Notes under the pieces: generated by a model
What the model saw: only the letters and a program-made list of their open reading frames with translations
Told to the model about the DNA's origin: nothing
Databases searched by the model: none
Origin: Nocardioides pocheonensis
GTDB lineage: Bacteria > Actinomycetota > Actinomycetes > Propionibacteriales > Nocardioidaceae
NCBI RefSeq assembly: GCF_003725535.1
Contig: NZ_RJSF01000005.1
Coordinates: forward strand, 62,001-126,000
Length of the DNA stretch: 64,000 nt
Reading direction: 5' to 3'
Shown: positions 15,805-35,945 of the stretch, in pieces
Numbering within the stretch: the first letter of the stretch is position 1
How the letters are laid out: the number at the start of each line of letters is the position of its first letter
Made by a program: the position numbers and the translations under genes

Positions 15805-16197
15805 ATGACCGAGACGCCGCGTGACGTGACGAGCGCTGCCGCGTCATCCGGCCCTGCCGCTCCCCGCCGGGCCAGGCACCTGATGGACCCGAACGCTCCC
15901 CGTCCGGTGCGCAACGTCCGGGCCGAGAAGGAGAGCCTCACCCGCGTGCAGCAGTGGGTGATGTCGACCCTCGCGGTCACCACGGGCCTGCACATGGCCG
16001 CCGGACTGATCCTCGCCGCGATGTTCCTCGACGAGCGCGGCACGGTGTCCCAGGTCGGGCTCAACATGATCGCCGGCATCTTCGGCGTGCTGTCGATCGC
16101 CGCCGCGCTGGCGATCCACAAGCGCGCGTGGCTCAGCCCCTGGCTGACCCTCGGCATGGTCCCCACCATCGTGGGGCTCTGGCTGACCTTCGGCTGA
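15805..16197 (+). CDS. Small membrane protein downstream of the cysteine-rich protein
   Basis: 130-aa protein of unrecognised family. A polar N-terminus of about 45 residues (Ala/Ser/Arg-rich, with RHLMDPNAPRPVRN) is followed by three hydrophobic segments: VMSTLAVTTGLHMAAGLILA, VGLNMIAGIFGVLSIAAALA and WLTLGMVPTIVGLWLTF. A good ribosome-binding site (GAGGAGGA) sits 6 nt before ATG 15805. It is likely co-transcribed with the 39-aa protein under the CsoR-like operator, and a terminator hairpin follows. The shared control points to a role in metal or sulfur-species handling, without direct evidence. Confidence 0.85.
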   Translation: MTETPRDVTSAAASSGPAAPRRARHLMDPNAPRPVRNVRAEKESLTRVQQWVMSTLAVTTGLHMAAGLILAAMFLDERGTVSQVGLNMIAGIFGVLSIAAALAIHKRAWLSPWLTLGMVPTIVGLWLTFG

Positions 16198-16203
16198 CGC
16201 ACG

Positions 16204-16223
16204 CCCCGCGCCGCGGGGTCTTT
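16204..16223 (+). terminator. Hairpin plus short T-tract closing the CsoR-like mini-operon
   Basis: CCCCGCG (16204-16210) and CGCGGGG (16212-16218) form an inverted repeat that folds as a 5-bp stem with a 5-nt loop, followed by TCTTT. It lies 6 bp after the membrane-protein stop. Confidence 0.55.
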
Positions 16224-16264
16224 GGGCCCTGTGCCACGCCCCGAGCCGCGCCGATGCTGGAGCC

Positions 16265-17812
16265 ATGGAGCTGCTCGAGCTGCGCCGGCAGGCGCGCGCC
16301 GTCATCGACGATCCTGCACTCACCTACCGGCAGCGCGTGCACCGGCTGGCTGCGATCGCGGAGAACGCGCTGGAGCCTCCGCCGGTGTCCGCGGAGTGCG
16401 CGGAGGCCCTGGAGAAGCGGGTCGTCTGCGACCTCTACGAGGGCAACGCGCCGTACCGGCCCCGCTACGTGCTGCCCGACTACGCGGTCCTCCTCGAGCG
16501 CGGGTCGTCGTTCCTCGAGCTCGCCCCGGCTCGGGACCTCGACGAGGCCCTGGCCCACCTGCTGATCGCCTACACGCAGGTCCCCTCGATCACCGGCTAC
16601 CCGGTCTGGCTCGGTGACCTCGACGCGTTGCTGGAGCCGTACGCCGCCGACGTCGACGACGCCGAGCTGCAGCGCAGGCTGCGGCTGTTCTGGATCTCGC
16701 TCGACCGGATGCTGCCCGACGCCTTCACGCACGCGAACCTCGGCCCGCGCGACACCCGGGTGGGCCGGACGGCCCTGCGGCTGGAGCGCGAGCTGCTGCA
16801 GGTGGTGCCGAACCTCAGCCTCAAGGTGGACCCGGAGCTGACCCCGGACGACCTGGTCCGGGACGCCGTGGAGACGGTCTTCGCGTGCGGGCAGCCGCAC
16901 TTCGTGAACCACCCGATGATGATCGCGGGGCTCGGGCCGGCGTACGGCGTGGCGTCCTGCTACAACTCGCTGCCCGCCGGTGGTGGCTCGCACACGCTGG
17001 TCCGGCTGAACCTCGCCGAGGTCGCGCTGCGCCACCAGGGATCGCGCGCCACCTTCCTCGACGAGCTGCTCCCGCACTACGTCGAGCTCACCGCGGAGCT
17101 GATGCAGGCGCGGATCCTGCACCTCGTGGAGGAGGCCCGGTTCTTCGAGCACTCCTGGCTGGTCGGCGACGGGCTCCTGAGCCTCGACCGCTACACCGCG
17201 ATGTTCGGTGTCTTCGGTCTCGCCGAGGCCGTGGCCCGGGTGCTCGAGCACGAGGGCACTCCGGGCAGCTACGGCCACGACCCCGCTGCCGACCAGCTTG
17301 CCCACGAGATCCTCGAGCGGGTCGCCGAGCTCGTCGCCACGCGCCCGATGCCCTACTGCGAGGGCAGCGGCGGGCGTGCCCTTCTGCACAGCCAGAGCGG
17401 CATCGACTCCGACCTCGGCGTCACCGCGGGCTGCCGTGTGCCCGTCGGCGACGAGCCCGCCCTGCTCGAGCACCTGCGGACGGTCACGCCGAACCACGCG
17501 CTGTTCCCCGCCGGGATCAGCGACGTCCTGGCCTTCGACGAGACCACGAGACGCAACCCCGAGGCGGTGGTCGACGTGATCCGCGGGGCGTTCCGCACGG
17601 GCATGAGGGACTTCACCTTCAACCTCGACAGCAATGACTTCATCCGGATCACCGGCTACCTCGTGCGCAAGTCCGACCTGGCGAAGATCGAGCGCGGGGC
17701 CCGGCACGACAGCACCTTCCTGGGCGCGGGCTCGGTGGCGCAGTCCCACGTCGACCGACGGGCTCCGAAGAGGGTGGTGGCCGATGAGCTCGACGCCGGT
17801 CCGGCTCGCTGA
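16265..17812 (+). CDS. yjjI: YjjI-family glycyl radical enzyme
   Basis: 515-aa protein matching the poorly understood YjjI glycyl radical family (E. coli homologue about the same length). Near the C-terminus DFIRITGYLVRKSDLAKI carries the R-x-x-G-Y glycyl radical motif with Gly464 as the predicted radical site. VASCYNSLPAGGGSHTL contains Cys232, the best candidate for the catalytic thiyl residue. PYCEGSGGRALLHSQSG is another conserved-looking block. It overlaps the following radical SAM activase gene by 29 bp. Reaction and substrate are unknown; it is not a pyruvate formate-lyase, being much shorter and lacking the adjacent Cys-Cys pair. Glycyl radicals are oxygen-sensitive, unusual beside O2-dependent catabolic genes. 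Confidence 0.9.
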   Translation: MELLELRRQARAVIDDPALTYRQRVHRLAAIAENALEPPPVSAECAEALEKRVVCDLYEGNAPYRPRYVLPDYAVLLERGSSFLELAPARDLDEALAHLLIAYTQVPSITGYPVWLGDLDALLEPYAADVDDAELQRRLRLFWISLDRMLPDAFTHANLGPRDTRVGRTALRLERELLQVVPNLSLKVDPELTPDDLVRDAVETVFACGQPHFVNHPMMIAGLGPAYGVASCYNSLPAGGGSHTLVRLNLAEVALRHQGSRATFLDELLPHYVELTAELMQARILHLVEEARFFEHSWLVGDGLLSLDRYTAMFGVFGLAEAVARVLEHEGTPGSYGHDPAADQLAHEILERVAELVATRPMPYCEGSGGRALLHSQSGIDSDLGVTAGCRVPVGDEPALLEHLRTVTPNHALFPAGISDVLAFDETTRRNPEAVVDVIRGAFRTGMRDFTFNLDSNDFIRITGYLVRKSDLAKIERGARHDSTFLGAGSVAQSHVDRRAPKRVVADELDAGPAR

Positions 17813-18509
17813 CGTCGTCCCGTTCTCGTGGGTGGACGGCCCGGGCAACCGGTTCGTGGTCTTCACCCAGGGGTGCCCGTTCGACTGCCTGGCCTGCCAC
17901 AACCCGGAGACGATCCCGCCGCACCCTCCGGGCACCCGTCACCAGACCGTCGCCGGGCTGCTCACCGAGATCCGCCTCGCAGAGCCGTACCTGCAGGGTG
18001 TGACCGTCTCCGGCGGGGAGGCGACCGCGCAGTGGCGCTTCGTGCGCGACCTCTTCCGCGCGGTGCGGGCCGACCCGCGGCTCCGTCGGCTGACGACGTA
18101 CGTCGACACGAACGGCCACGCGCTGCCCCGGGTCTGGGACGCCCTGCTGCCCGTGACCGACGGCTTCATGGTCGACCTGAAGGCGCTCGACCCCGACGTG
18201 CACCGACGGCTCACCGGGCGCGGCAACGGCCTCGTCCTCGACTCCATCCGGTACCTCCACGACCGGAACCGGCTCGCCGAGGTCCGGCTCCTGCTCGTCC
18301 CCGGCCACAACGACTCCGCGGACCAACTGGAGCGCACCGCCGCCTGGCTCGCGGCGCTCGACCCGGAGGTCCGCGTGGTGGTGATCGGGTTTCGCCGGCA
18401 CGGCGTACGGCTCGAGTTCTCCGGGACGCCCGAGGCCACGCCGGAGCTCCTGGCCCGTGCGCGGGAGGCCCTCGAGGACGCCGGCCTGAGGAACGTCGTC
18501 ACGGTGTGA
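17784..18509 (+). CDS. yjjW: Radical SAM glycyl radical enzyme activase, YjjW family
   Basis: 241-aa radical SAM protein predicted to install the glycyl radical on the upstream YjjI protein. The cluster motif is C31-x3-C35-x2-C38 in QGCPFDCLACHNPET, followed by VTVSGGEATAQ (SAM-binding GGE). TTYVDTNGHALP and FMVDLKALDPDVHRRLTGRG are activase-typical strands. No 8-iron ferredoxin insert is visible between the radical SAM motif and the GGE motif, so this is a short activase. ATG 17784 is inside the end of yjjI; an extended frame upstream is unlikely. The two genes form an operon. Confidence 0.92.
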   Translation: MSSTPVRLADVVPFSWVDGPGNRFVVFTQGCPFDCLACHNPETIPPHPPGTRHQTVAGLLTEIRLAEPYLQGVTVSGGEATAQWRFVRDLFRAVRADPRLRRLTTYVDTNGHALPRVWDALLPVTDGFMVDLKALDPDVHRRLTGRGNGLVLDSIRYLHDRNRLAEVRLLLVPGHNDSADQLERTAAWLAALDPEVRVVVIGFRRHGVRLEFSGTPEATPELLARAREALEDAGLRNVVTV

Positions 18510-18523
18510 CAGGTCCTTGGACC

Positions 18524-18540
18524 CGGAATCGCGGATTCCG
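18524..18540 (+). terminator. Short hairpin after the glycyl radical operon
   Basis: CGGAATC (18524-18530) and GATTCCG (18534-18540) form a perfect 7-bp stem with a 3-nt loop, 14 bp after the activase stop. There is no T-tract, so this is a modest call. Confidence 0.4.
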
Positions 18541-19820: not shown

Positions 19821-20414
19821 ATGCCCGAGCTGCGTCGCGTCGCCGTCTTCTGCGGTTCCGCTCCCGGAACCGACCCGACCCTCCTCGAGGTGGCCCACGA
19901 CGTCGGCCGTGGACTGGCCGAGCGGGGCATCGGCCTGGTCTACGGCGCGGGCGGGAAGGGCCTGATGGGCCGCCTCGCCCAGGGTGCGCTCGACGCCGGA
20001 GGGGAGGTCGTCGGCGTGATCCCGCGCGCCATGGTCGAGCGCGAGTGGGGGCGTGCGGACCTGACCGAGGTGCACGTCGTCGAGAGCATGCACGAGCGCA
20101 AGGCCCTCATGGCCCGGTACGCCGACGCGTTCCTCTGCCTGCCCGGCGGCCTCGGCACGCTCGAGGAGATCTTCGAGGTCTGGAGCTGGCGACAGATCGC
20201 CTTCCTCGACGACCCGGTCGGCTTCCTCAACGTCGCGGGCTTCTGGGACCCGCTGCTGGCCGCGCTCCGCGGACTGGTCGAGGCGGGATTCGTGCACCCG
20301 GACGTGCTCGAGGACCTCGTCGTGGCAGGCACCCTCGACGAGGCCCTGGCCGGGCTGACCGCGCGGCTGGGCACCCGACTGCCCGACAAGCTCCCCGGGC
20401 CGGCTCAGCCGTAG
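19821..20414 (+). CDS. LOG-family protein (TIGR00730), probable nucleoside 5'-monophosphate phosphoribohydrolase
   Basis: 197-aa Rossmann-like protein. VFCGSAPGTDP near the N-terminus, GLVYGAGGKGLMGRLA, and the signature PGGLGTLEEIFEVWSWRQI (active-site PGGxGTxxE with Arg in MHERKALM) identify the family that releases cytokinin-type bases or hydrolyses nucleotides. ATG 19821 is used; MPELRRVAVFCGS is a typical start. Its final 10 bases overlap the stop of the convergent iolG. The cellular substrate is unknown. Confidence 0.9.
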   Translation: MPELRRVAVFCGSAPGTDPTLLEVAHDVGRGLAERGIGLVYGAGGKGLMGRLAQGALDAGGEVVGVIPRAMVEREWGRADLTEVHVVESMHERKALMARYADAFLCLPGGLGTLEEIFEVWSWRQIAFLDDPVGFLNVAGFWDPLLAALRGLVEAGFVHPDVLEDLVVAGTLDEALAGLTARLGTRLPDKLPGPAQP

Positions 20415-21406
20415 AGCGCCGGCACGTCGTACCGGGGCACCTCGACGCGGGCCCGCGTGTGGAGCGACTCGATCGCGGCGAACGCGATCTCGGTCGCGAG
20501 GTAGCCGTCCCATGCGGACGGTGTCGCCGGCGACCCGCTGCGGATCCCGTCGACCCACGCCGCCAACTCGATCCGGTAGGCATCGGCGAAGCGGGCGACG
20601 AAGTCCGCGCCGACCCGGCGGCCGTCGAGGGCGTCCCGCCGAGAGCTCAGGCCGTACGGCGGGCTCAACGAGACCGTCCCCTCGGTGCCCACGACCTCGG
20701 TGTGGATGTCGTAGCCGTAACGCGCGTTGACCGAGACCTCCACCGTGACCACCGACCCGCCGGCCATCTCGAGCACGATCACCTGCACGTCCTGGAGAGC
20801 GTCGCCGTCGACCCTCGGCGCGAACACCGTGACCGCGTCGACGCGGTCGCCGACCAGCCAGGGAACGCAGTCGAACTCGTGGATCGCGGAGTTCACCAGC
20901 ACGCCGTCGGACGTGGCGCTCGGGTGGGCCTGCACGTTGCGGTGCACGCAGTGCACCGCCCGAGGCCGCCCGACCTCGCCGGCGAGCACCGCCGACCGCA
21001 GCGCGACGTACGCCGGGTCGAAGCGCCGCATGAAGCCCAGCTGGAGCAGTCGCCGGCCGACCGCGACCTCGGCGTCGACGACACGGCGCGCGCCCTCGAC
21101 CGACGTCGAGAGCGGTTTCTCGAGCAGCGTCGGCTTGCCGGCGGCGAGACACGCCAGCGCCAGCTCCTCGTGCAGAGGGTCGGGGGCAGCGACCAGCACC
21201 GCCTCGATCGCGTCGTCCTGGATCAGCGACTCGGCCGAGGACGCCGCGAACGCGCCCACCGACCCGGCGACGGCCTCGGCGCGGTCCAGGTCCAGGTCGT
21301 ACACGGCGACCACCTGGGCACCGGGCACCCACCGGTGGAGCGTCTCGACGTGGGCGGCCCCCATCGCGCCGGCTCCGACCACTCCGATCCGCACGTCGGT
21401 GCTCAC
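20405..21406 (-). CDS. iolG: Inositol 2-dehydrogenase-like Gfo/Idh/MocA oxidoreductase
   Basis: 333-aa NAD-dependent enzyme; last gene of the iol operon. The NAD-binding motif is IGVVGAGAMGAAHVETLHRW. The catalytic block LLEKPLSTSVEGA contains the family Lys and FMRRFDPAYVALRS and NSAIHEFDCVPWLVGDRV (His/Asp region) match inositol 2-dehydrogenases that oxidise myo-inositol to scyllo-inosose. GTG 21406 overlaps the upstream stop as GTGA, the pattern seen throughout this operon; ATG 21418 is a possible alternative that would overlap by 16 bp. Its end overlaps the LOG gene by 10 bp. Confidence 0.9.
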   Translation of the reverse strand: MSTDVRIGVVGAGAMGAAHVETLHRWVPGAQVVAVYDLDLDRAEAVAGSVGAFAASSAESLIQDDAIEAVLVAAPDPLHEELALACLAAGKPTLLEKPLSTSVEGARRVVDAEVAVGRRLLQLGFMRRFDPAYVALRSAVLAGEVGRPRAVHCVHRNVQAHPSATSDGVLVNSAIHEFDCVPWLVGDRVDAVTVFAPRVDGDALQDVQVIVLEMAGGSVVTVEVSVNARYGYDIHTEVVGTEGTVSLSPPYGLSSRRDALDGRRVGADFVARFADAYRIELAAWVDGIRSGSPATPSAWDGYLATEIAFAAIESLHTRARVEVPRYDVPALYG

Positions 21407-22566
21407 GGGCTCACCCATCTCTTCTCGTCGACCGACCGCACGACGGCGTCGACCAGCTCCGCGGCCACGACCGCGTCGTCGATGCCGGCGCCGTGCTGGA
21501 CGCCGGTGCTGATGCTCTCGGCGAGCCGACGTGCTTCGACGACCTTGAGGTCGTCGAAGCCCATCGCCATGCCGGAGCCCGGCTGGAAGCGGCCGAGCTC
21601 GCCGTCACGAGGAGCCACCAGCCGGGTCTGCCACGCGGCGTCCTGGTAGTCCTGGTCCAGGCAGGTGCGCAGCTCGCCCATCCGGCGGAAGTCCCACGCC
21701 AGAGCGCCTTCGGTGCCGCGCACCTCGATGCCGTAGCTGCACTGCTCGCCCACGGCCACCCGTGACGCGGTCAGGTATCCGCGGGCGCCCGACTCGAACC
21801 GCAGCAGCGCCGAGGCCTGGTCCTCGTTGCCGACCGCCGCCCTCGGGCCGTCGCCGCCGCGCGCGAAGTGGGAGACCGCGCCGGTGGCGCCGGGTCGCTC
21901 CGTGACGAAGGTCGCCCGGTCAGCGACCAGCTCGGCGACCGCCCCGACGGTGTCCCCGCCGACGTAGCGGGCCAGGTCGAAGCCGTGGCTGGCCAGGTCG
22001 CCGAGCACGCCGGTGCCGGCGTACGTCGGGTCGAAGCGCCACGACAGCGCGCCGTCGGGATGCGCCGAGTAGTCGGCGAGCATGCGGACCTCGACGCTCT
22101 CGATCCGGCCGAGTCGACCCGTCGCGACGAGCTCACGGGCGACCTCGACCGCCGGCGCGTTGCGGTAGTTGAACCCCACCGCGGAACTCACGCCCGCCTT
22201 GCGGACCGCGGCGGCGATCGCCGCCGTGTCCTGCGCGCTGCGGCCCGCCGGCTTCTCGATCCAGAGGTGTCGACCGGACTCCGCCACGGCCGTGCCGATC
22301 TCGCGGTGCACGAAGTTCGGCCCGCACACGCTGACCACGTCCACGTCGTCGCGCTCCAGCAGCTCGCGCCAGTCCGCGTACGCCCCACCGAAGCCGTACG
22401 CCGCCACCGCCTCGTCGCGACGCTCGGGCTCGGGGTCGGCGACCGCCACGAACCGCGGCCGCAGCGGGCTGTCCGGGTAGTGGTGCAGCAAGCGGGCCCA
22501 GGCCCGGGTGTGCACCTGGCCCATCCAGCCGAACCCGATCACCGCGACCCCGACGTCACGCGTCAC
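21403..22566 (-). CDS. Gfo/Idh/MocA-family oxidoreductase, probable inositol-isomer dehydrogenase
   Basis: 387-aa NAD(P)-dependent oxidoreductase. [20 protein letters not shown] is the nucleotide-binding start, [20 protein letters not shown] has the catalytic Lys-Pro, and [17 protein letters not shown] is the substrate-region His. It differs clearly from the iolG next to it: it has a longer N-terminal insert after MGQVHTRAW ([15 protein letters not shown]). A role on another inositol isomer (scyllo- or D-chiro-inositol) or on a keto intermediate is inferred from its place in the operon. The start is GTG 22566, overlapping the stop of the ATPase gene. Confidence 0.88.
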
Positions 22567-23483
22567 GAAACCCCCCGGTCGACCGGGTCGTTCGGGTCAG
22601 CGACGCCCATGGTCTCGGCCACCTCGTCCTCGAGCGCCCGGGCGACCTCCGAGTCCGGAAGCTCCCGGCTGAGCTCGTGGCTGAGCGCCTCCAGCTCGCT
22701 GCCGCCGGCCATCATCTGGACCAGCTCGTCGAGCGCCAGCTCTGCCTTCGGGAAGTTGCCCATGCTCCGGCCGCGTCGCAGCAGCATGAAGCGGTCACCC
22801 ACCGGGTAGGCGTGGTGCGGGTTGTGGGTGATGAAGATGACGCCCAGGCCCCGGTCGCGCGCCGCGGCGACGTACTTGAGCACGACGCCGGACTGGCGCA
22901 CGCCGAGAGCCGCCGTCGGCTCGTCGAGGATCAGCACCCTCGCGCCGAAGTACACGGCGCGCGCGATCGCGACGCACTGGCGCTCACCGCCCGAGAGCGT
23001 GCCGATCGGCTGCTCCACGTCGCGCAGGTCGATGCCCATCGCCGCGAGCTCGGTCTTGGTGATCCGCTTCATCTTCGCGGCGTCCAGCCGGCGGAGCGGG
23101 CCGAACCCCTTGGTCAGCTCGGCCCCGAGGAAGAAGTTCCGCCAGACCGGCATCAGCGGCACGACCGCGAGATCCTGGTAGACGGTGGCGATCCCGAGGG
23201 CCAACGCGTCGCGCGGCGAGGCGAAGTGCCGCTCCTGGCCGTCGACCACGAACCTGCCCTGGCTGTGCGCGTGCGCACCGGCGAGGATCTTGATGAACGT
23301 CGACTTGCCGGCTCCGTTGTCGCCGAGGACGCAGGTGACCTCGCCGGCGTTCACGGTGGTGGTCACGCCCTGCAGGGCCAGGACGGACCCGAAGGTCTTG
23401 CCGATGTCCTCGACCTCGATGATCGAGGAGCCCGGCGACGGCAGGGTCGGTGCACCGGACCGGTTCTCCGTGGTCGTGCTCAT
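22563..23483 (-). CDS. Inositol/sugar ABC transporter ATP-binding protein (single-domain)
   Basis: 306-aa ATPase of the ribose/xylose-type importer. Walker A is [10 protein letters not shown], the Q-loop region [13 protein letters not shown], signature [18 protein letters not shown], Walker [13 protein letters not shown] and switch [12 protein letters not shown]. Only one nucleotide-binding domain is present, unlike the usual double-domain RbsA/IatA, so it must act as a homodimer. A roughly 50-residue acidic tail ([20 protein letters not shown] onward) is extra. ATG 23483 overlaps the permease stop as ATGA. Confidence 0.92.
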
Positions 23484-24592
23484 CTCATCTGCTCCGCTCG
23501 TGTCTTGACCCAGTTGTTGACGAGGACCGCGCCGAGGAGCATCACGCCGAGGAACGCGTAGAGCCAGTCGCTGTCCCATCCCGCGTAGACGATGCCCTGG
23601 CCGACCATCCCGTAGATCAGCGCACCGAAGGCGGCCCCGACCGCCGACCCGTAGCCACCGGTCAGCAGGCACCCGCCGACGACGGCGCAGATGATGTAGA
23701 CGAACTCCTGACCCACACCGGTCGTCGACTGCGCCGTGGTGGTCTTGAAGAGGTTGAGCATGCCGACGATCCAGCCGGCGAACGCGGTCGTCATGAACAG
23801 CCCGACCTTGGTCCGGAAGACCGGGACGCCGACCTGGCGCGCGCTCTGCTGGGCGCCGCCGACGGCGAAGATCCAGTTGCCGGAGTGCGTGCGCTGCAGG
23901 ATCCAGGTCGCCACCAGCACCACGACGATCGCCCAGAACGTCGCGGCGTACAGGGTGAGGAAGCCGGTGCTCGGGACCTTCACCCACGGCAGCCAGCCGA
24001 GGTCGAGCTTGACGTAGGAGCCGAAGACCTTGGCGCCGGCGTCGTAGCCCGGCACGTCCTGGAAGTTCACCACCGAGACCTGGTGGATGATCTGCTTGAC
24101 CACCGCGAGGTCGACTCCGCGGAGCACGAAGAACGTGCCGAGCGTGACGATGAAGCTCGGCAAGCCGGTCTTCATCACGAGCACGCCGTTCAGGAAGCCC
24201 ACCGCCAGAGCCGCGACCAGCGACGCGAAGATCGAGACCCAGACGTTCCAGTGGTAGTGCGTCATCAGGATGCCGGTGATGAGTCCGGTGAAACCGGTCA
24301 TCGCGCCGGCGGAGAGGTCGAACTCACCGCCGATCATCAGGAGCGCGACCGCGACCGCCATGATCGCGAACGACGACGACGTGTAGATCCAGGTGCTCGC
24401 ACCGGAGGGCCTGGCGAACGCCTCGGTCGAGAACGCGAAGTACAGGAAGACGATGAGCGCCGCGACCATGGCGCCCACCTCCGGTCGACGCAGCACCGCG
24501 GCCAACCGGGCGTTCTTCCCCAGCCGCTCGTCCCTGACGTCGTGCGGTTCTTCCGGCTCGGCCACCTGCGGTGGCGCTGCTGTGGTGCTCAT
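23480..24592 (-). CDS. Inositol/sugar ABC transporter permease (RbsC/XylH type)
   Basis: 370-aa membrane protein with about ten hydrophobic helices. Landmarks are [20 protein letters not shown] (the conserved early loop of ribose-type permeases), [20 protein letters not shown] and VIYII-like [20 protein letters not shown]. The start ATG 24592 is followed by a polar 35-residue cytoplasmic leader. It lies between the binding-protein gene, from which a strong hairpin separates it, and the ATPase gene. The substrate is inferred to be myo-inositol from the operon. Confidence 0.93.
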
Positions 24593-24625
24593 CGGTGCCC
24601 TCCTCGGGCTCGTCGTACGGGTGAA

Positions 24626-24659
24626 GGGTGGGGTCCGGAACCAGGACCGGACCCCACCC
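24626..24659 (-). terminator. Intra-operon 13-bp hairpin between binding protein and permease genes
   Basis: GGGTGGGGTCCGG (24626-24638) and CCGGACCCCACCC (24647-24659) are perfect inverted repeats with an 8-nt loop, 6 bp after the binding-protein stop on the minus strand. Without a T-tract it is more likely a partial terminator or 3'-end stabiliser that keeps binding-protein mRNA more abundant than permease mRNA. Confidence 0.7.
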
Positions 24660-24664
24660 TCGGC

Positions 24665-25663
24665 TCAGCGAGTGCCGTTCTGCGCGAACTTCAGCACGTC
24701 GGCCGCGTTGTCCTTGGTGATGATCGCGGGACCTGAGTACACCGGCTGACCGCCACCGATGTCGTTGCCGTTGAGGAGCTTGAGGTAGATCCCCGTGACA
24801 CCGAGGTAGCCCTGGACGTAGGGCTGCTGGTCGATCGCGAAGGCGAGCTTGCCGTCGGAGATGTTCTTCACCACGTCGGCGTTGACGTCGAACGTGGCGA
24901 CCTGGATCTTCGCGCCGGTGGCCGCGACTGCCTTCACTGCCTGACCGGACATGTCGCCGCCCAGGGTCAGGATGCCGTCGATGCTCGAGTCGGACTGGAT
25001 CTTGGACTCGATGGTGGCCTCGGAGCCCGCGAGGTCGGTGTTGTCGACCTGCAGGTTGGTCATCTTGCCCGAGAACTTCGACTTGGCGCCGGCGCAGCGC
25101 TGCTCGAGGGCCACGTTGCCGGCCTCCTGGATCACGCACAGCACGTTCTTGACACCCAGGCTCGAGAGCTTCTCGCCGGCTCCCTCGCCGGCCAGCGTCT
25201 CGCTCTGGCCCACGTGCGTGATCGCGCCGAATTCCTTCCACTTGTCGATGCCGGAGTTGATGGTGATCACCGGGATGCCTGCCGCGACCGCGGCCTTGAT
25301 GCTCTTCTCGAGACCGTCCGGGTTCGCCATCGAGATGACCAGTCCGTCGGTACCTGACGCGACGGCGTTGTCGATCAGCGTCGCCTGCTTACCCACGTCG
25401 CCGTCGCTCTGGTAGTGCAGGTCGACGCCCTCGTCCTTGCCGGCCTGGACCGCCCCGGCCTTGACGACGTCCCAGAACGAGTCACCCGCGTTCGCGTGCG
25501 TGATGACGTCGATCCGGAACTTTCCCTTCGCCGAGCCTGCGCTCGCTGCCTTGGTGTTGGTGTCGGAGCTGGAGCCGCTGCTGTTGCCGCTCCCGGTGCT
25601 GCAGCCCGCGAGCGCGAACGCCAGCGCGACAACTCCGAGGGTCAATCCCCGTCGGACCTTCAT
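24665..25663 (-). CDS. Inositol/sugar ABC transporter substrate-binding lipoprotein
   Basis: 332-aa periplasmic-binding-protein of the ribose-binding (PBP type 1) class. Signal peptide MKVRRGLTLGVVALAFALAG ends at the lipobox with Cys21, then a Ser/Gly/Asn linker. The mature domain shows VITHANAGDSFWDVVKAGAV, YQSDGDVGKQATLIDNAVA, GTDGLVISMANPDGL and ILTLGGDMSGQAVKAVAATG. The ATG is preceded by a strong GGAGG (complement of about 25669-25673). It follows iolA in the same operon, and myo-inositol is the likely ligand. Confidence 0.92.
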   Translation of the reverse strand: MKVRRGLTLGVVALAFALAGCSTGSGNSSGSSSDTNTKAASAGSAKGKFRIDVITHANAGDSFWDVVKAGAVQAGKDEGVDLHYQSDGDVGKQATLIDNAVASGTDGLVISMANPDGLEKSIKAAVAAGIPVITINSGIDKWKEFGAITHVGQSETLAGEGAGEKLSSLGVKNVLCVIQEAGNVALEQRCAGAKSKFSGKMTNLQVDNTDLAGSEATIESKIQSDSSIDGILTLGGDMSGQAVKAVAATGAKIQVATFDVNADVVKNISDGKLAFAIDQQPYVQGYLGVTGIYLKLLNGNDIGGGQPVYSGPAIITKDNAADVLKFAQNGTR

Positions 25664-25703
25664 GTGTTTCCTCCTAGTTCGACCGCGTGTCGCGGACTGT
25701 CCC

Positions 25704-25721
25704 CCGGTGCTCGGGCACCGG
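25704..25721 (-). terminator. Small hairpin between iolA and the binding-protein gene
   Basis: CCGGTGC (25704-25710) and GCACCGG (25715-25721) make a perfect 7-bp stem around a 4-nt loop, within the 69-bp gap between iolA and the binding-protein gene. This is the largest internal gap of the operon, so it may separate two transcription levels. Confidence 0.5.
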
Positions 25722-25732
25722 ACGTCTGTGCC

Positions 25733-27231
<1,499 letters not shown>

Positions 27232-27235
<4 letters not shown>

Positions 27236-29163
27236 CGTCGGTCCTCTTCTCGTTGCTCTTCGCTCGTGTCCGGTGCCGCGTCCGCGGGCCTCAGGTACCC
27301 GCGCTGGTGCGCCTTGCCCTCGTCGTACGTCGCCCGCGCCGTGCGCGTGGTCTCCAGCTCCGAGACCTCCGCCACCGGGACGTCCCACCACGACTCCGAG
27401 GAGGGGACCGGCGCGAGCGGATCGGTCTGGATCTCGACGACCGTGGTGCGCTCGGAGGCGCGGGACTTCGCCAGGGCGGCCCGGAGCTCCTCGATCGTCG
27501 AGGCGCGGATCACGTCCGCGCCGAGGCTCGCGGCGTTCGCCGCCAGGTCGACCGGCACGAACGGGCCGTCCAGGCGGCCGGTCTCCGGGTCGCGCTGCCG
27601 GTAGCTGGTGCCGAACCGCTGCGACCCGACGGAGTCGGACAACGAGCCGATCGACGCGAAGCCGTGGTTCTGCACCAGCACGATGTTGAGCTTCACGCCC
27701 TCGGCGACCGCGGTCGCGAGCTCCTGCGCCATCATGAGGTACGACCCGTCGCCCACCAGCACGAACACCTCGCGACAAGGATCGGCCATCTTCGTGCCGA
27801 GACCACCGGCGATCTCGTAGCCCATGCAGGAGTAGGCGTACTCGACGTTGTAGGCCTTGGGGTCCGCGGCGCGCCAGAGCAGCTGCAGGTCGCCGGGCAG
27901 GCTGCCCGCCGCCTGGACGATCACGTCGCTCGGGTCGAGCACGTCGTGCAGCGCGCCGAGGACCTCGGTCTGCGCGGGAAGCGGTTCGTGGCCCAGGTGG
28001 AACGCCCGGTCGACCTCGGCGTTCCACGCGGCCGTGTGCTCCTGGTACGCCGCGACGTACGGCTGGTCCACCTGCCACCCCGCCAAGGCCTCGGTGAGGG
28101 CCTCGAGACCGGCGCGCGCGTCGGTGACGACGGCGATCGCCGCGTGCTTGGCCGAGTCGAACCCGGTGACGTTGAGGTTCACGAACCGCACGTCCGGGTT
28201 GCCGAACTGCGTCCGCGACGCCGTGGTGAAGTCGCTGTACCGCGTGCCGACCCCGATCACGACGTCGGCGTCGCGGGCCAGCCGGTTGGCCACCGGCGTG
28301 CCGGTCGAGCCGACGCCGCCCACGGCCTGCGGGTGGTCCCACGGGATCGCCCCCTTGCCGGCGTGCGTGTCGGCCACGGGGATGCCGGTCGCCTCGGCGA
28401 ACCGGACGAGCGCGTCCGCGGCGTCGGCGTACACGACGCCGCCGCCGGCGACGACGAGGGGCCGCCGCGCGGTGCGGATCGCCGACACGGCGCGGGCCAG
28501 CGCCGCCGGTTCGGGTACCGGCCGCCGCACGTGCCACACCCGCTTGACGAACAGCTCCTCGGGCCAGTCGAACGCCTCGGCCTGCACGTCCTGAGGCAGG
28601 CACACGGTCACGGCGCCGGTCTCGGCCGGATCGGTGAGCACCCGCATCGCGGCGAGGAGGGCCGACGGCAGCTGCTCGGGACGGTTCACCCGGTCCCAGT
28701 ACCGCGACACGGGCTTCAGGGCGTCGTTGACGGAGACGTCGTGCGAGCGCGGGTCCTCGAGCTCCTGGAGCACCGGGTTCGCGACCCGCGTGGCGAAGAA
28801 GTCGCTGGGCAGCAGCAGGACGGGCAGCCGGTTGGTGGTCGCGAGCGCCGCGCCGGTCACCATGTTCGTCGACCCCGGCCCGATCGAGGCCGTGCAGGCC
28901 AGGGTCTGGAGCCGGTTGCGCGTCTTGGCGAAGGCCGCCGCCGCGTGCACCATCGCCTGCTCGTTGCGCGCGAGGTAGTACGGCAGCTCCGCCGCGCCGT
29001 GCGTCGCGTCCTGCAGCAGCGCCTGTCCGAGACCGGCCACGTTGCCGTGCCCGAAGATGCCGAAGCAGCCGGGCACGAGCCGCTGCTCCGTGCCGTCGCG
29101 CTCGCTCCACTGGTGGGCCAGGAACCGGACCACGGCCTGGCCGACGGTCAGCCGGATCGTCAT
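27232..29163 (-). CDS. iolD: 3D-(3,5/4)-trihydroxycyclohexane-1,2-dione acylhydrolase (decyclising)
   Basis: 643-aa thiamine-diphosphate enzyme that opens the ring of trihydroxycyclohexane dione to 5-deoxyglucuronate. The cofactor-activating Glu sits in YLARNEQAMVHAAAAFAKT, and the ThDP/Mg motif is LVGDGSYLMMAQELATAV ending at VLVQNHGFAS. SYRQRDPETGRLDG is an IolD-specific block. ATG 29163 overlaps the iolB stop by 4 bp. The C-terminal tail is charged (TSEEQREEDRR). It acts after IolE and before IolB in the pathway. Confidence 0.96.
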
Positions 29164-30062
29164 CCCTCCCCCTTCGCGTCGCGCCCGAACGGCAGCCGCG
29201 GGTCGACCCCTTGCGTTGCCCAGGTGTCCCGGACCCAGCCGTGCGCGGGGTCGTCGCAGATCCGCCAGGCGCGCTCGTCGCCGGGACCGGCCATCACGTT
29301 GAGGTAGTAGAGGTCGTACCCGGGAGCCGCCATCGACGGTCCGTGCCAGCCGTGCGGGATCAGCACCGCGTCGCCGGTGCGCACCTCGGCGAGCACGTCG
29401 ATGTCGTTTCCGGGACTTCCGTAGACGCGCTGGTAGGCCATCCCCGGGCCGGCGGGTCCGTCGGCGACCTCGAAGTAGTAGATCTCCTCGAGCTCGCTCT
29501 CGGTCTCCGTGGTCCGGTCGTGCTTGTGCGGCGGGTACGACGACCAGTTGCCGCCCGGCGTGAGGACCTCGCACGCGATCAGCGCGTCGGCCTCGAACGC
29601 CTCCGGCGTGCAGAAGTTGTTCACCTGGCGGCTGGCCTGCCCCGCGCCGCGCAGCTCGACCGGCACCCGGTCGACCGGCTGGTACCGGAAGTCCAGCCGG
29701 CGTTCGCAGCGTGCGGACGGCAGCGCGAACCGGCCACCGGCCTCGCTGGCGATCCGGATCTCCGCGTCGCGCGGGACGTAGCCGAAGTCCGTCGGTCCGG
29801 CGAACACGTCGGGCCGACCGGTCAGCTCGATCGTCTCCCCGTCGCAGGTGACGGTCGCCGAGCCGGACAGCGGGAGCACGAGGGTCTCGGCCGCGCCGGT
29901 CGACCAGGTGCGCTGCTCGCCCGGCGCGAGCGTCAGCACGGCCAGCCCGCCGTGGTCCCATCCTGCGGACTCGGGCGTGATCAGGAGGTCGAGGCCGTAG
30001 GGAGCCTCGCTGTCCGCGGGCACCACGAAGCGGGTCGTCCGCCGCGTCGTCTCGGTCGCCAT
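29160..30062 (-). CDS. iolB: 5-deoxy-glucuronate isomerase
   Basis: 300-aa bicupin enzyme converting 5-deoxyglucuronate to 2-deoxy-5-keto-gluconate. The metal site is visible as NWSSYPPHKHDRTTETESEL and EEIYYFEV (two His, one Glu), with the further His in VLIPHGWHGPSMAAPGYDLY. RQVNNFCTPEAFEADALI is a typical IolB block. ATG 30062 overlaps no neighbour; the upstream gene stop is 1 bp away. Its stop overlaps the iolD start. Confidence 0.95.
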   Translation of the reverse strand: MATETTRRTTRFVVPADSEAPYGLDLLITPESAGWDHGGLAVLTLAPGEQRTWSTGAAETLVLPLSGSATVTCDGETIELTGRPDVFAGPTDFGYVPRDAEIRIASEAGGRFALPSARCERRLDFRYQPVDRVPVELRGAGQASRQVNNFCTPEAFEADALIACEVLTPGGNWSSYPPHKHDRTTETESELEEIYYFEVADGPAGPGMAYQRVYGSPGNDIDVLAEVRTGDAVLIPHGWHGPSMAAPGYDLYYLNVMAGPGDERAWRICDDPAHGWVRDTWATQGVDPRLPFGRDAKGEG

Positions 30063-30063
30063 C

Positions 30064-30936
30064 TCACATCATCCCGACGACGGCGTCGACGGCGGCGGAC
30101 ACGTCCCCGTCAGGTGGATAGAGCATCGACCGGCCCACGACCATGCCGCGGACCTGAGGGTTCGAGAGCACCTTCTGCCACGACGCGAACTGCGTGCTCT
30201 GGTCCTCCGAGACCTCCCCGCCGAGCAGCAGCACCGGCAGCGTCGTGGCGGCGAGGACGGCGTCCATGTCATCGACCACGGGCAGCTTGAGCCACGTGTG
30301 CGCGCTGCTCCAGCCGAGTCCGGCGGCGACCGTCGCCGACCTGATGACGGCGTCGACGGACAGGTCGTTGCGCACGCGGCCGCCGACCTGGTGTGAGATG
30401 AACGGCTCGACCATGGCCATCAGCTGGCGCTCGGCGAGCTCGCCCACGGCCTGTGCGCAGGACTCCAAGGTGCGGGCCGTGGCCGGATCCGCGGGGTCGA
30501 TGCGCAGCAGCATCTTGCCGCCCTGCAACCCCATCCGGCTGATCGCGGCGGCGTCGTACGCGGTGAAGCGGTCGTCGATCTCGAAGGCGGTGCCGGCCAG
30601 GCCGCCGCGGTTCATCGATCCGATCACGACCTTGTCGTCCAGAGCACCCATGAGCAGCAGGTCCTCGATGATGTCGGCAGTGCCGAGCACGCCGTCGACA
30701 CCGGGCCGTGCGAGCGCGGTCGCGAGCCGCTCCAGCAGCTCGCACCTGTCTGCCATCGCGAGGGCGTCGGCGCCCGCGCGAAGCGCGCCGCGGGCCGGGT
30801 GGTCCGCGGCCACGAGCACGAGGCGTCCGGTGCTCCCGACGAGCCCTCCTGGGGCGCGACGCGTAGCGGCGAGAGCGGCGATCCTGCCGGGCTCGCTCGC
30901 CCGTACGCCGGCCAGGTCCCGGATCGGCACGTTCAC
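30064..30936 (-). CDS. Inositol-cluster (beta/alpha)8 aldolase-like protein (Cgl0159 type)
   Basis: 290-aa TIM-barrel protein resembling the aldolase-like product of Corynebacterium inositol clusters. LVLVAADHPARGALRAGADA has the class I aldolase-like start, VVIGSMNRGGLAGTAFEIDDR and GGKMLLRIDPADPATARTL lie mid-barrel, and VRGMVVGRSMLYPPDGD ends the barrel with the phosphate-binding-like GRS. It probably cleaves 2-deoxy-5-keto-6-phosphogluconate to DHAP and malonate semialdehyde, the step done by IolJ elsewhere; no iolJ of the classic type is present. GTG 30936 overlaps the iolC stop. Confidence 0.85.
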   Translation of the reverse strand: MNVPIRDLAGVRASEPGRIAALAATRRAPGGLVGSTGRLVLVAADHPARGALRAGADALAMADRCELLERLATALARPGVDGVLGTADIIEDLLLMGALDDKVVIGSMNRGGLAGTAFEIDDRFTAYDAAAISRMGLQGGKMLLRIDPADPATARTLESCAQAVGELAERQLMAMVEPFISHQVGGRVRNDLSVDAVIRSATVAAGLGWSSAHTWLKLPVVDDMDAVLAATTLPVLLLGGEVSEDQSTQFASWQKVLSNPQVRGMVVGRSMLYPPDGDVSAAVDAVVGMM

Positions 30937-31898
30937 GGCATCTCCCCCAGGAGTTCCTCGAGCTCTTCGCTGCTCGGCATCGCGTCGGAGCAGGCGAGCC
31001 GGCCGGCCACCACCGCCCCGGCTGCGTTCGCGAACCGGAGCACCCGCTCGTCGTCCCAGCCGGCCAGGAGCCCGTGGCACAGCGCGCCGCCGAACGCGTC
31101 GCCCGCGCCCAGCCCGTTCACGACCTCGACCGCCACCGGCGGCACGACCACGGACCCGTCGCGCCGGGCGCCCAGGACACCGGCCGGACCCTGCTTCACC
31201 ACGGCGAGCTCGACACCCGCCTCCAGCAGGGCGGCCGCTGCGCTCTCGGGCTCGCGCTCCCCGATCGCGGTCTCGCACTCGTCGAGGTTGCCGACCGCGA
31301 CGTCGACCAGCTCGACGGCAGCGCGGATGTGCTCGTGCGCCTCGGCCCGCGACGACCAGAACATCGGCCGGTAGTCGAGGTCGAGGATCGTCGTACCGTG
31401 GCCGTCGCGTGCCTTCAGGGCGGCCATGGTCGCCGACCGCGACGGCTCCTCGCACAGGCCCGTGCCGGTGACCCAGAACACGTCGGCGGCCGCGATCGCG
31501 TCGAGGTCGAGCTCGTCGACCTCGATCTGCAGGTCCGGTGCCGTGGGCAACCGGTAGAAGTACAGCGGGAAGTCGTCGGGCGGGAAGATCTCGCAGAACG
31601 TGACCGGCGTGGGGAGGTTCGGCACCTCGGTGACGTAGCGGTCGTCGACGCCGAACCCGCGCAGCGCCTGGTGCACGAACCGGCCGAAGGGGTCGGCGCC
31701 GGTGCGGGTGATCACGGCCGTCCTCCTGCCGTGACGCGCCGCGGCGACGGCGACGTTCGTCGGGCTGCCGCCGAGGAACTTGCGAAACGTGGCGACCTCC
31801 TCGAGAGGCACGCCGATCTGCTCCGGGTAGACGTCGACGCCGACGCGCCCCATGGTCAGCACCTCGAAGCGTGCGGGCTGCTCCGCCGCCACGGTCAT
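30933..31898 (-). CDS. iolC: 5-dehydro-2-deoxygluconokinase
   Basis: 321-aa PfkB-family kinase that phosphorylates 2-deoxy-5-keto-gluconate. The N-terminal signature is LGGSPTNVAVAAARHGRR and the C-terminal catalytic motif VNGLGAGDAFGGALCHGLLA with the base Asp. MGRVGVDVYPEQIGVPLEEV, DFPLYFYRLPTAPDL and TILDLDYRPMFW are IolC-specific. ATG 31898 overlaps the iolE stop by 4 bp. The frame is open further upstream but that region is iolE in another frame. Confidence 0.95.
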   Translation of the reverse strand: MTVAAEQPARFEVLTMGRVGVDVYPEQIGVPLEEVATFRKFLGGSPTNVAVAAARHGRRTAVITRTGADPFGRFVHQALRGFGVDDRYVTEVPNLPTPVTFCEIFPPDDFPLYFYRLPTAPDLQIEVDELDLDAIAAADVFWVTGTGLCEEPSRSATMAALKARDGHGTTILDLDYRPMFWSSRAEAHEHIRAAVELVDVAVGNLDECETAIGEREPESAAAALLEAGVELAVVKQGPAGVLGARRDGSVVVPPVAVEVVNGLGAGDAFGGALCHGLLAGWDDERVLRFANAAGAVVAGRLACSDAMPSSEELEELLGEMP

Positions 31899-32809
31899 GG
31901 AGCGACCTGCACCAGGTAGTCGAGGCTCTTGCGCACGTCGGCGACGGGACCCTCGTCGACCGGTGGGGCGTCGAGCATGACGTCCTGCTCCAGGACGTAC
32001 CAGCCCTGGTAGCCGGCGCCCTCGAGCGTGCGCACCATCGCCGCGATGTCCACGTCGCCGTCGCCGAGCGGCCGGAACATGCCTGCGCGCACGGCCTCGC
32101 CGAAGCTCAGCGAGCCGTCGATCACCTTCGCCGCCAGGCTGCCGTCGACGTCCTTGAGATGGACGTGCACGACGCGGTCGGGGTGACGAGCGGTGAGCGC
32201 GACCGGGTCGGCGCCCCCGACCATGAGGTGGCCGGTGTCGACGCAGAGCCCCACCCGGGATCCGGCGAGCACGCGCTCGGTCTCCTCGCCCGTCTCGACC
32301 ATCGTGCCGACGTGCGGGTGCACGCAGGCGATCACGCCCCGGGCCTCGGCCCGGTCGGTGATCCGGTCCAGGTTGGCCAGCATCGTCGCCCAGCCCTCGT
32401 CGTCGAGCACCGGACGCGCGTCGTAGCCGTCCACGCCGGTGAACGCGGCGAGCACGACGACGCCGGCTCCCGAGGCAAGGCAGCCGTCGATGAAGGCGTC
32501 GACCTCCGGCAGTGGGTCGTGGGCCGCGTCGTGCAGGAGAACCGGCAGGAACCCACCCACGGCCTTCATCCCGTACGACGCCAGCTGCTCGGCCTTGGCG
32601 GCCGGCTCCTCCTCCAGGAAGCCCACGGGGCCGAACTCCGTCGCGGCGAGCCCGAGGGTGCGCATCTCGGCGAGCACGCGATCGGCCTCGAGCTGGTGTC
32701 CCCAGTTCGGCACCTCGCACACGCCCCAGGAGATGGGCGCTCCGGCGACTCGCGATCGAAGGGACTGGTTCTGGTTGCCGGGGGCCTGGGACCCGTGCAC
32801 CTGCGTCAT
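31895..32809 (-). CDS. iolE: Myo-inosose-2 dehydratase
   Basis: 304-aa TIM-barrel, metal-dependent enzyme that dehydrates 2-keto-myo-inositol, first gene of the operon. RVAGAPISWGVCEVPNWG is the family start, with ACVHPHVGTMVETGEETERV, LCVDTGHLMVGGADPV and RVVHVHLKDVDG carrying the metal ligands. ATG 32809 is preferred because a -10 element ends 7 nt upstream, which would give a leaderless mRNA starting at this A. An in-frame GTG at 32827 is the alternative, but it would lie upstream of the predicted transcription start. Confidence 0.92.
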   Translation of the reverse strand: MTQVHGSQAPGNQNQSLRSRVAGAPISWGVCEVPNWGHQLEADRVLAEMRTLGLAATEFGPVGFLEEEPAAKAEQLASYGMKAVGGFLPVLLHDAAHDPLPEVDAFIDGCLASGAGVVVLAAFTGVDGYDARPVLDDEGWATMLANLDRITDRAEARGVIACVHPHVGTMVETGEETERVLAGSRVGLCVDTGHLMVGGADPVALTARHPDRVVHVHLKDVDGSLAAKVIDGSLSFGEAVRAGMFRPLGDGDVDIAAMVRTLEGAGYQGWYVLEQDVMLDAPPVDEGPVADVRKSLDYLVQVAP

Positions 32810-32816
32810 GGGTGAG

Positions 32817-32846
32817 ATTGTCGTCACACTTCCGGACGCAGGTCAA
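32817..32846 (-). promoter_or_regulatory. Promoter of the iol operon, apparently leaderless
   Basis: On the minus strand TTGACC (complement of 32841-32846) and GACAAT (complement of 32817-32822) are -35 and -10 elements with an 18-bp spacer. Seven bases later comes ATG 32809 of iolE, so transcription would start at the A of the start codon. Confidence 0.6.
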
Positions 32847-32851
32847 GAGTT

Positions 32852-32861
32852 TGTTAGGACA
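32852..32861 (-). promoter_or_regulatory. IolR-type operator
   Basis: The minus strand reads TGTCCTAACA, which fits the KGWCHTRACA consensus I recall for Corynebacterium IolR at all ten positions. It lies 5 bp upstream of the iol -35 and directly next to the likely promoter of the divergent GntR gene (TGGACG 32864-32869, TACGAT 32886-32891), where it could control both. The match rests on memory of the consensus. Confidence 0.55.
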
Positions 32862-32935
32862 TATGGACGTTTGCAGGTCCTGCGCTACGATCCGAGCACG
32901 GTGCCACGACCGTCGGCGCGAGAGGGGGCTGGGAG

Positions 32936-33673
32936 ATGCCGCTACCGGACGTCGTCGTGAACCGCTCGAGCCCGGTGCCGCTGTACTTCCAGGTTGCCGA
33001 GCAGCTCGAGCGGGCTATCTTCGAGGGCAAGCTCGCCCCCGGCGACCGGATCGCCAACGAGGTGGCGCTCGCCGGGGATCTCGGGCTCTCCCGCCCCACG
33101 ATGCGCCAGGCGATCCAGCTCCTCGTCGACAAGGGGATGCTGGTCCGCAAGCGGGGGGTGGGCACCCAGGTGGTGCACCCGCCGATCAAGCGAACGGTCG
33201 AGCTGACCAGCCTGTACGACGACCTCAAGCGGGGTGGCCGCCAGGCGGAGACCCAGGTCCTCGACCAGCAGCTCGTCGAGGCCGACGAGGTCGCCGCGTC
33301 TCGGCTCAAGGTCGCCGAGGGCAGCTCGGTGTGGAAGCTCGACCGGCTGCGGACCGTGGACGGCGAGCCGCTTGCCCTGATGCGCAACTTCGTGCCTGCG
33401 GCGATCAGCGACCTCAGCCACGTCGACTTCACGACGACCGGCCTCTACGAGCACTTCCGCGCCGGCGGGATCCACCTGCGCGTGGCGCACCAGACGATCA
33501 GCGCACGACGCGCCGAGACCGCTGAGGCGCGGCTGCTCGGTGGACGCAAGGGCGACCCGGTGCTGACGATGGAGCGCACGTCGTTCGACGACAGCGGTCG
33601 GGCCGTGGAGTACGGCACCCACCTGTACCGCCCGGACCTCTACGCCTACGAGACGACGCTGGTCGACCGGTAA
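32936..33673 (+). CDS. iolR: GntR-family regulator with UTRA ligand domain, IolR-like
   Basis: 245-aa repressor. The N-terminal winged helix is PLYFQVAEQLERAIFEGKLA, then GLSRPTMRQAIQLLVDKGML and VRKRGVGTQVVHP. The C-terminal UTRA domain runs from about residue 95 (SSVWKLDRLRTVDGEPLALM, AETAEARLLGGRKGDPVLTM). UTRA binds small sugars or amino acids. ATG 32936 has a strong ribosome-binding site (GGGAG). It diverges from the iol operon across 126 bp that carry an IolR-type site, so it very likely represses that operon until inositol or a derivative binds. Confidence 0.92.
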   Translation: MPLPDVVVNRSSPVPLYFQVAEQLERAIFEGKLAPGDRIANEVALAGDLGLSRPTMRQAIQLLVDKGMLVRKRGVGTQVVHPPIKRTVELTSLYDDLKRGGRQAETQVLDQQLVEADEVAASRLKVAEGSSVWKLDRLRTVDGEPLALMRNFVPAAISDLSHVDFTTTGLYEHFRAGGIHLRVAHQTISARRAETAEARLLGGRKGDPVLTMERTSFDDSGRAVEYGTHLYRPDLYAYETTLVDR

Positions 33674-33685
33674 CGGGCCGACCGG

Positions 33686-34777: not shown

Positions 34778-34807
34778 GCGGACAGGCTATCGGGAAGCAG
34801 CCCGGGA

Positions 34808-35827: not shown

Positions 35828-35861
35828 CACGCCTCCTCGAGACCCGTTCCTGTCGCTGATC

Positions 35862-35925
35862 CTAGATCGCTCTAGCCGAAACCCTTGACCGGCGACGCCG
35901 CGTGATCGAGACTAGAGCGCTCTAG
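35862..35925. promoter_or_regulatory. Twin LacI-type operators, 50 bp apart
   Basis: CTAGATCGCTCTAG (35862-35875) and the perfect palindrome CTAGAGCGCTCTAG (35912-35925) are two copies of one 14-bp site, with start positions exactly 50 bp apart, or nearly five helical turns. They lie in the divergent gap: one next to the lacI start, the other just upstream of the iolG2 ribosome-binding site. This spacing suits looping by a LacI tetramer or cooperative binding. Confidence 0.8.
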
Positions 35926-35945
35926 CCCTTGAAGGAGACCGGCGC

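Follow-up and report, generated by a model that had tools for sequence, protein, structure and literature searches.

A YjjI glycyl radical enzyme and its short activase in Nocardioides pocheonensis, with likely hypoxic control

We analysed a 64,000-nucleotide stretch of the Nocardioides pocheonensis genome (GCF_003725535.1, contig NZ_RJSF01000005.1, positions 62,001 to 126,000; hereafter the window), which encodes a YjjI-family glycyl radical enzyme followed by an overlapping gene for a short radical S-adenosylmethionine (SAM) activase. Glycyl radical enzymes are classically associated with anaerobes. The host uses oxygen, as the first-pass annotation of the window had proposed and as a haem-copper oxidase in its own genome confirms. 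The first gene almost certainly encodes a genuine YjjI, its partner a pared-down activase. Our analysis of the sequence suggests that together they most likely carry out a radical reaction induced by hypoxia in this aerobe, and that they probably form a working two-gene glycyl radical module switched on as oxygen falls. YjjI is often the sole detected glycyl radical enzyme of oxidase-bearing bacteria and appears to be linked to an oxygen-depletion switch, which suggests an overlooked radical step in the hypoxia survival of Actinobacteria.

YjjI and its short activase

The product of the first gene is, with near certainty, a genuine YjjI glycyl radical enzyme, judging from profile matches and conserved residues. 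In the hidden Markov model search for which the first-pass annotation had called, it matched TIGR04040 with 717.3 bits (cut-off 498.3) over residues 9-502 of 515, and it matched PF11230 with 673 bits (cut-off 23), upholding the earlier call of a full-length enzyme. The two radical-bearing residues named there are exact: Gly464 lies in an ordinary RxxGY motif (R461-I-T-Gly464-Y) and is kept in 90/90 aligned homologues, and Cys232 is kept in 89/90, so that the absence from homologues that had been named as evidence against the assignment was not found. Asn234, of the C232-Y-N stretch, is likewise kept in 89/90. The exception for Cys232 is locus L010, the single YjjI of the 90 without this residue (alanine by column counts), which adjoins a short activase and is either real or a bin error.

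YjjI lacks the adjacent Cys-Cys signature of pyruvate formate-lyase (PFL), reading S231-C232 and scoring 15.3 bits with PF02901 (cut-off 24.3); it also lacks the Cys-x-Glu signature of dehydratases and decarboxylases, reading C232-Y-N, and the C-terminal zinc CxxC pairs of class III ribonucleotide reductase (RNR), since none of its six cysteines is arranged as CxxC. An AlphaFold2 model aligns with glycyl radical enzyme structures over about residues 18-503, and its predicted fold is closest to class III RNR; its glycyl domain is of low confidence (predicted local distance difference test score <50 for residues 456-515), which counts against our interpretation. In weak, single-template hhalign comparisons, Cys232 paired with the motif cysteines of E. 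coli NrdD, PflB and YbiW at probabilities of 22, 1 and 24%.

Given this likeness in fold and, weakly, in the finger-loop cysteine, YjjI might be seen as a trimmed class III RNR that makes deoxynucleotides in anoxia. We give this almost no credence: YjjI is without the CxxC pair and has 515 residues against 712 in E. coli NrdD, the best NrdD equivalog model scored 13 bits on it (cut-off 545), E. coli carries both NrdD and YjjI, and class II NrdJ was found over its cut-off in 33 of 42 YjjI genomes, that of N. pocheonensis included. These 42 genomes comprise those of 41 of the 80 loci in our sample plus the N. pocheonensis genome; the locus sample itself is made up of the 80 best of 116 relatives, for the most part metagenome bins of Actinobacteria, and includes Nocardioides, Planomonospora, Dactylosporangium, Trueperaceae and SAR324.

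The second gene had been annotated as the YjjW partner of YjjI with a C31-x3-C35-x2-C38 motif. The motif is confirmed, and its cysteines are the only ones in the protein. Among NCBIfam models the activase matched TIGR04041 (YjjW) best, with 215 bits, yet under the cut-off of 250.2; TIGR02493, the model for the PFL activating enzyme (PFL-AE), gave a lower 134.5 bits, and PF04055 gave 75.3 bits (cut-off 29.5). Its best PDB match is E. coli PFL-AE (3c8f, E 2.9e-29), which it resembles in size (~245 residues) and in having a single CX3CX2C cluster. Unlike PFL-AE, it scores higher with the YjjW model, sits beside YjjI and clusters with short YjjW proteins, which are its nearest kin in YjjW trees. 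The E. coli pair YjjI/YjjW (b4380/b4379) shares the YjjI family (47% identity), the gene order with overlap, and the R-x-T-G-Y and S-C-Y-N motifs, but E. coli YjjW has 287 residues and 16 cysteines, compared with 241 and three here. Long YjjW proteins, that of E. coli included, carry a ferredoxin insert of ~44 residues and eight cysteines just after the CX3CX2C motif, and in the YjjW alignment these columns are empty in the window activase. Because it falls below the cut-off and the insert is missing, we call it a short YjjW-lineage activase and not a TIGR04041 member; the earlier pairing thus holds for YjjI, and the partner is not a standard YjjW.

The labelled YjjW proteins divide into 49 short and 39 long among 88 rows, some of which are copies. 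In a careful tree built from 50 selected rows of YjjI plus YjjW, with the insert columns removed, the insert trait changes four times, and four changes are forced by well-supported branches. A single change was seen in 0/200 bootstrap trees, and a single group of short YjjW was rejected by the approximately unbiased test (p 4.6e-5; 1.0e-5 without L006, L007 and L085). Two trees that were larger but more quickly built showed 5 and 7 changes, of which at least 3 and 2, respectively, were forced. Trees alone cannot separate loss from gain; we favour loss of the insert because its breakpoints differ among YjjW proteins and because L085 retains a C-P-x-D piece resembling the last ferredoxin motif.

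The passages available from two papers describe the role of the activase ferredoxin insert as largely unknown, with activation reported without rebuilding the auxiliary clusters (PMC10239695), and call the auxiliary clusters of activases of unknown function (PMC11528403). Because nature offers this one enzyme family both long and short activases, the role can be tested by comparing them. In another enzyme, a ferredoxin-type domain is reportedly required for a lasting radical. Tentatively, and with somewhat less than even confidence, we propose that the YjjI of aerobes is a hypoxia-survival enzyme whose catalytic set (S-C-Y-N, Arg247) lies outside the PFL, Cys-x-Glu and RNR groups, and whose activase repeatedly shed a two-cluster ferredoxin domain that would hence be dispensable for activating one family.

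A candidate hypoxia box upstream of yjjI

The gap of 67 bases between the preceding gene and the YjjI ATG contains GGGTCTTTGGGCCC, a predicted box of the type bound by the hypoxia regulators DevR/DosR and OsdR. Boxes matching the core pattern at ≥9/10 positions lie within 150 bp upstream of yjjI in 18/81 loci; the Markov control averaged 1.4 and the random-window control 1.0, and no more than 3 were reached in 30 repeats. This count omits nine loci, including L007 and L010 without good reason, plus L086 (short upstream region); with L007 and L010 restored it becomes 20/83. Seventeen of the 20 sites at ≥9/10 are oriented alike and three are opposite. Sites at ≥8/10 concentrate at -60 to -41, with 25 locus-offset events versus 0-6 in each other 20-bp bin. 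For DevR, sites at about -42.5 relative to the transcript start are frequent, and bacteria of this group commonly have leaderless mRNA. Hexamers resembling TAnnnT occur shortly before the ATG in several yjjI loci, which fits this layout, and GATGCT in the window matches only weakly.

Since the core pattern was chosen post hoc, we added a test with an independent matrix built solely from 24 OsdR sites printed in the part of PMC5069765 available to us. At ≥6 bits it found sites in 19/81 yjjI upstream regions versus 41 of the 793 regions that precede the other genes of these loci (Fisher 3e-7), and yjjI ranked first in its locus in 19/72 cases versus 7.5 expected. The position, matrix and base-pairing counts were all made on the reduced locus set without L007 and L010. 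Among boxes for other regulators, CRP, Rex, NarL and PerR gave means near those of shuffles upstream of yjjI (86 loci); FNR boxes were slightly above (6.40 vs 6.14, sd 0.07, 86 loci), and the best FNR site in the window upstream region matches at 6/10. In E. coli, by contrast, the control of yjjI and yjjW is listed as FNR: the accessible table of PMC2634741 marks both genes as FNR-activated. The two genes also appear in an anaerobic transcriptome table (PMC3792023), and another table gives them as lower after vanillin treatment (PMC6561319).

Several observations weigh against DevR control. The core pattern was picked after we had inspected the upstream sequences, and the yjjI loci are not independent of one another. 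With the OsdR matrix the window box scores only 7.85 bits and 62/81 loci fall below 6 bits, and a 20-mer DosR scan is only weakly positive (mean 11.66 vs 11.45, sd 0.10, 86 loci). No sigma-70-type promoter pair was called near the box, and the nar operon of N. pocheonensis has an 8/10 box at best. The boxes are also GC-rich, as is the region around that of the window, and partly palindromic, and the L019 site forms five pairs followed by six T, so that it may be a terminator. Together with the post hoc motif and the nar operon, these points would fit a real gene pair under some other control, in which the box would be the upstream gene's terminator, or a GC-rich palindrome that arose by chance. 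Against this stand the peak of positions at -60 to -41, the shared orientation, the enrichment with the published-site matrix and the DevR/DevS-like genes described below. Of the 20 sites at -65 to -39, moreover, only seven pair at positions 4/11, two form all five pairs (L019 and the window, the latter with one G-T pair), and the T-run of L019 is the sole one; no terminator was called in window positions 16150-16300. We regard control by something other than DevR as unlikely, though it is the most probable of the alternatives, and hypoxic control of yjjI and its activase, as predicted from the sequence, as likely.

Across the N. pocheonensis genome, the exact box pattern occurs 32 times, versus 11 for the reversed pattern, and 26 of 30 examined exact boxes fall between called genes (the intergenic share of the window is 8.6%). 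Among the genes lying up to 300 bp from a box are, over NCBIfam cut-offs, an Acg-family (Rv3131-type) nitroreductase and a wax ester synthase/diacylglycerol acyltransferase (WS/DGAT), and further a hemerythrin, a DUF1918 protein, a phosphoribosyltransferase-domain protein and a P450; other genes near boxes do not resemble dormancy genes, among them VIT1, apparent flagellar genes and one for a Bmp-type binding protein. WS/DGAT is a DosR target. The OsdR targets predicted in PMC5069765 include nitroreductase and hemerythrin genes, so that the window genome shares with the DevR/DosR and OsdR hypoxia-dormancy regulons the box, DevR/DevS-like genes, and a nitroreductase and a hemerythrin behind boxes. 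An exact box also lies ~60 bp upstream of a four-gene 2-oxoacid:ferredoxin oxidoreductase operon (L185:3860-8349), which encodes PorC (TIGR02175, over cut-off), an NAD(P)-binding Fe-S protein, and two subunits that are PorA- and PorB-like by best match but score under the equivalog cut-offs.

The regulator itself is represented by a DevR-like response regulator (best PDB match DEVR 3c3w, 1.2e-44, for a 145-residue piece ending at the locus edge). Adjoining it on contig 43 is a GAF-HisKA_3 kinase (2vzw, 1.8e-49; DEVS 2y8h, 1.2e-43), and one exact box lies ~4 kb from these genes, in the same 10 kb. In the PubMed Central (PMC) full-text literature we found no joint treatment of the DosR regulon and a glycyl radical enzyme.

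Three further observations concern such patterns. A second, 9/10 DevR-like palindrome, AGGTCCTTGGACCC, lies at 18511-18524, right after the activase stop and ~80-95 bp before a small open reading frame (ORF) at 18605, and is either a box or a terminator. A candidate dormancy island on contig 49 (L156, 123000-142000) holds five exact boxes in ~14.4 kb, beside genes for DUF1918, phosphoribosyltransferase-domain, NAD_binding_4 reductase-like and DUF4118-like proteins. On contig 42 (L157, 218000-232000), two exact boxes accompany apparent flagellar genes (identified from protein starts only), which may reflect either regulation of motility by hypoxia or chance occurrence of the boxes.

Distribution, oxygen and a proposed mechanism

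YjjI exceeds its cut-off in 9/396 genomes of the phylum. Among 58 genomes of relatives, a real YjjI match was found only in N. pocheonensis and one genus mate, the third match having 20 bits. The patchy distribution, with 79% identity to the YjjI of a Planomonospora, suggests that the pair moved between orders. In the genus mate (G417; L167, contig 36), YjjI is broken into two ORFs at about residue 167 and accompanied by a long, ferredoxin-bearing YjjW, which would mean that the genes there were acquired separately or that the draft contains an error. Patchiness and this split gene could also mean that the pair is a decaying, horizontally acquired relic devoid of function, which we consider very improbable because the window ORFs are intact, the radical residues are conserved and YjjI is under purifying selection (dN/dS 0.24-0.35 over four relatives); dN/dS for the activase is 0.24-0.44 over four relatives.

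Among the 42 YjjI genomes, haem-copper oxidase (COX1) occurs in 41, that of N. pocheonensis included. PFL-type Gly_radical matches were found in 7/42 and strong NrdD in 2/42; another 13 have partial 20-40-bit NrdD matches that we judged to be YjjI itself, as their position shows in the N. pocheonensis genome. No other glycyl radical enzyme was detected in 34/42, an absence that is soft because many of these genomes are incomplete bins. NarG (E≤1e-100) is present in 19/42, including N. pocheonensis. It occurs in 4/4 YjjI-bearing Nocardioides-type genomes (G000, G417 and two placed by name only) versus 6/22 genus genomes without YjjI (Fisher ~0.014, a post hoc comparison of draft genomes), which hints at a link between nitrate reductase and YjjI. 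Co-regulation with NarG is unsupported, since the nar operon is without a strong box. In the passages available from PMC3228777, an NrdD-like domain is predicted for YjjI and a role in nitrogen metabolism is suggested from clustering with narG.

The first-pass annotation asked when an oxygen-sensitive radical would be used in such a host, or whether the protein tolerates air. Use in air, with a protected radical or an oxygen-tolerant protein, would fit the near-universal oxidase, the scarcity of other glycyl radical enzymes and an activase without two probable auxiliary clusters. It is quite improbable in our view, because the box and the DevR/DevS-like genes speak against it, as do the FNR control listed for the E. 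coli genes, the nitrate reductase in 19 of the genomes and the ordinary radical motif. We therefore favour use in hypoxia, for which air tolerance is not needed.

For this hypoxic use, we propose the following mechanism. On the strength of sequence matches and box statistics, a GAF-domain kinase of the DevS/DosT type would sense low oxygen and phosphorylate DevR, which would bind the box, adjacent to the -35 region of a promoter giving leaderless mRNA, and turn on yjjI and the overlapping activase gene. The co-occurring boxes suggest that the same regulon would yield the 2-oxoacid (probably pyruvate):ferredoxin oxidoreductase, which could feed low-potential electrons to the activase. By analogy with the enzyme families, the activase would use its only cluster, the SAM [4Fe-4S] cluster, to form a 5'-deoxyadenosyl radical and take a hydrogen atom from Gly464; the radical would then pass to Cys232, which would take a hydrogen atom from a small substrate.

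In 75/81 loci YjjI is directly followed by YjjW, the sole widely recurring neighbour (this count omits the identical copies L003, L004 and L005, the fragments L076 and L082, the near copies L008 and L009, and, for no good reason, L010; L061 was lost by the gene caller). Other shared neighbours are confined to seemingly closely related loci, and a search near other loci for the E. coli yjjI neighbours (deo and others; deoCABD adjoins the E. coli pair) gave, among the matches listed, only YjjW. Since no pathway gene travels with this self-contained module, it probably draws its substrate from core metabolism and returns its product there. Arg247, 15 residues past Cys232, is invariant and aligns with PflB Arg435, which we take to have a role in pyruvate binding; this faintly suggests a carboxylate substrate, and the hhalign probability of the pairing, 1.3%, counts against it. 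As the first-pass annotation had supposed, we found no YjjI reaction in the PMC full-text passages available, although subscription literature might hold one. The presence of the long version in E. coli K-12 makes the reaction approachable in a laboratory strain.

Coordinates and gene neighbourhood

Features of the yjjI locus, in window positions.
Feature	Position	Strand	Basis or remark
Predicted DevR/DosR/OsdR-type box GGGTCTTTGGGCCC, centred 42.5 bp upstream of the YjjI ATG	16216..16229	+	10/10 to GGGNCNTTNGNCCC
Weak -10-like hexamer GATGCT, which would make the mRNA leaderless at the ATG	16253..16258	+	Sequence
YjjI-family glycyl radical enzyme, 515 aa	16265..17812	+	TIGR04040, PF11230; AlphaFold2 model nearest class III RNR fold
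Cys232 codon, presumed thiyl residue, context S-C-Y-N	16958..16960	+	Conservation; weak alignment with glycyl radical enzyme cysteines
Gly464 codon, presumed radical glycine, R-I-T-G-Y	17654..17656	+	Conservation 90/90
Short YjjW-lineage radical SAM activase, 241 aa	17784..18509	+	Best model TIGR04041; first 29 bp shared with the end of YjjI
C31-x3-C35-x2-C38 motif of the SAM [4Fe-4S] cluster	17874..17897	+	Sequence, alignment
Junction where long YjjW carry the ~44-residue, 8-Cys ferredoxin insert	17919..17924	+	Alignment

The first-pass annotation described the surrounding genes as requiring oxygen. Such genes exist in the window but are not close surroundings: protocatechuate dioxygenase subunits lie at 44990-46365, ~26 kb from the pair, and a Rieske/VanA-type oxygenase at 52173-53237, ~34 kb away. 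The same annotation saw no neighbouring metabolic genes, which is right in that none is conserved across loci, the myo-inositol catabolism genes of the window included, and overlooks that these genes form a nearer cluster downstream (20405-37765). It encodes IolD, IolB, IolC and a methylmalonate-semialdehyde dehydrogenase over their cut-offs, IolE- and IolG-like proteins by best match, and an ABC transporter and regulators recognized from sequence starts only.
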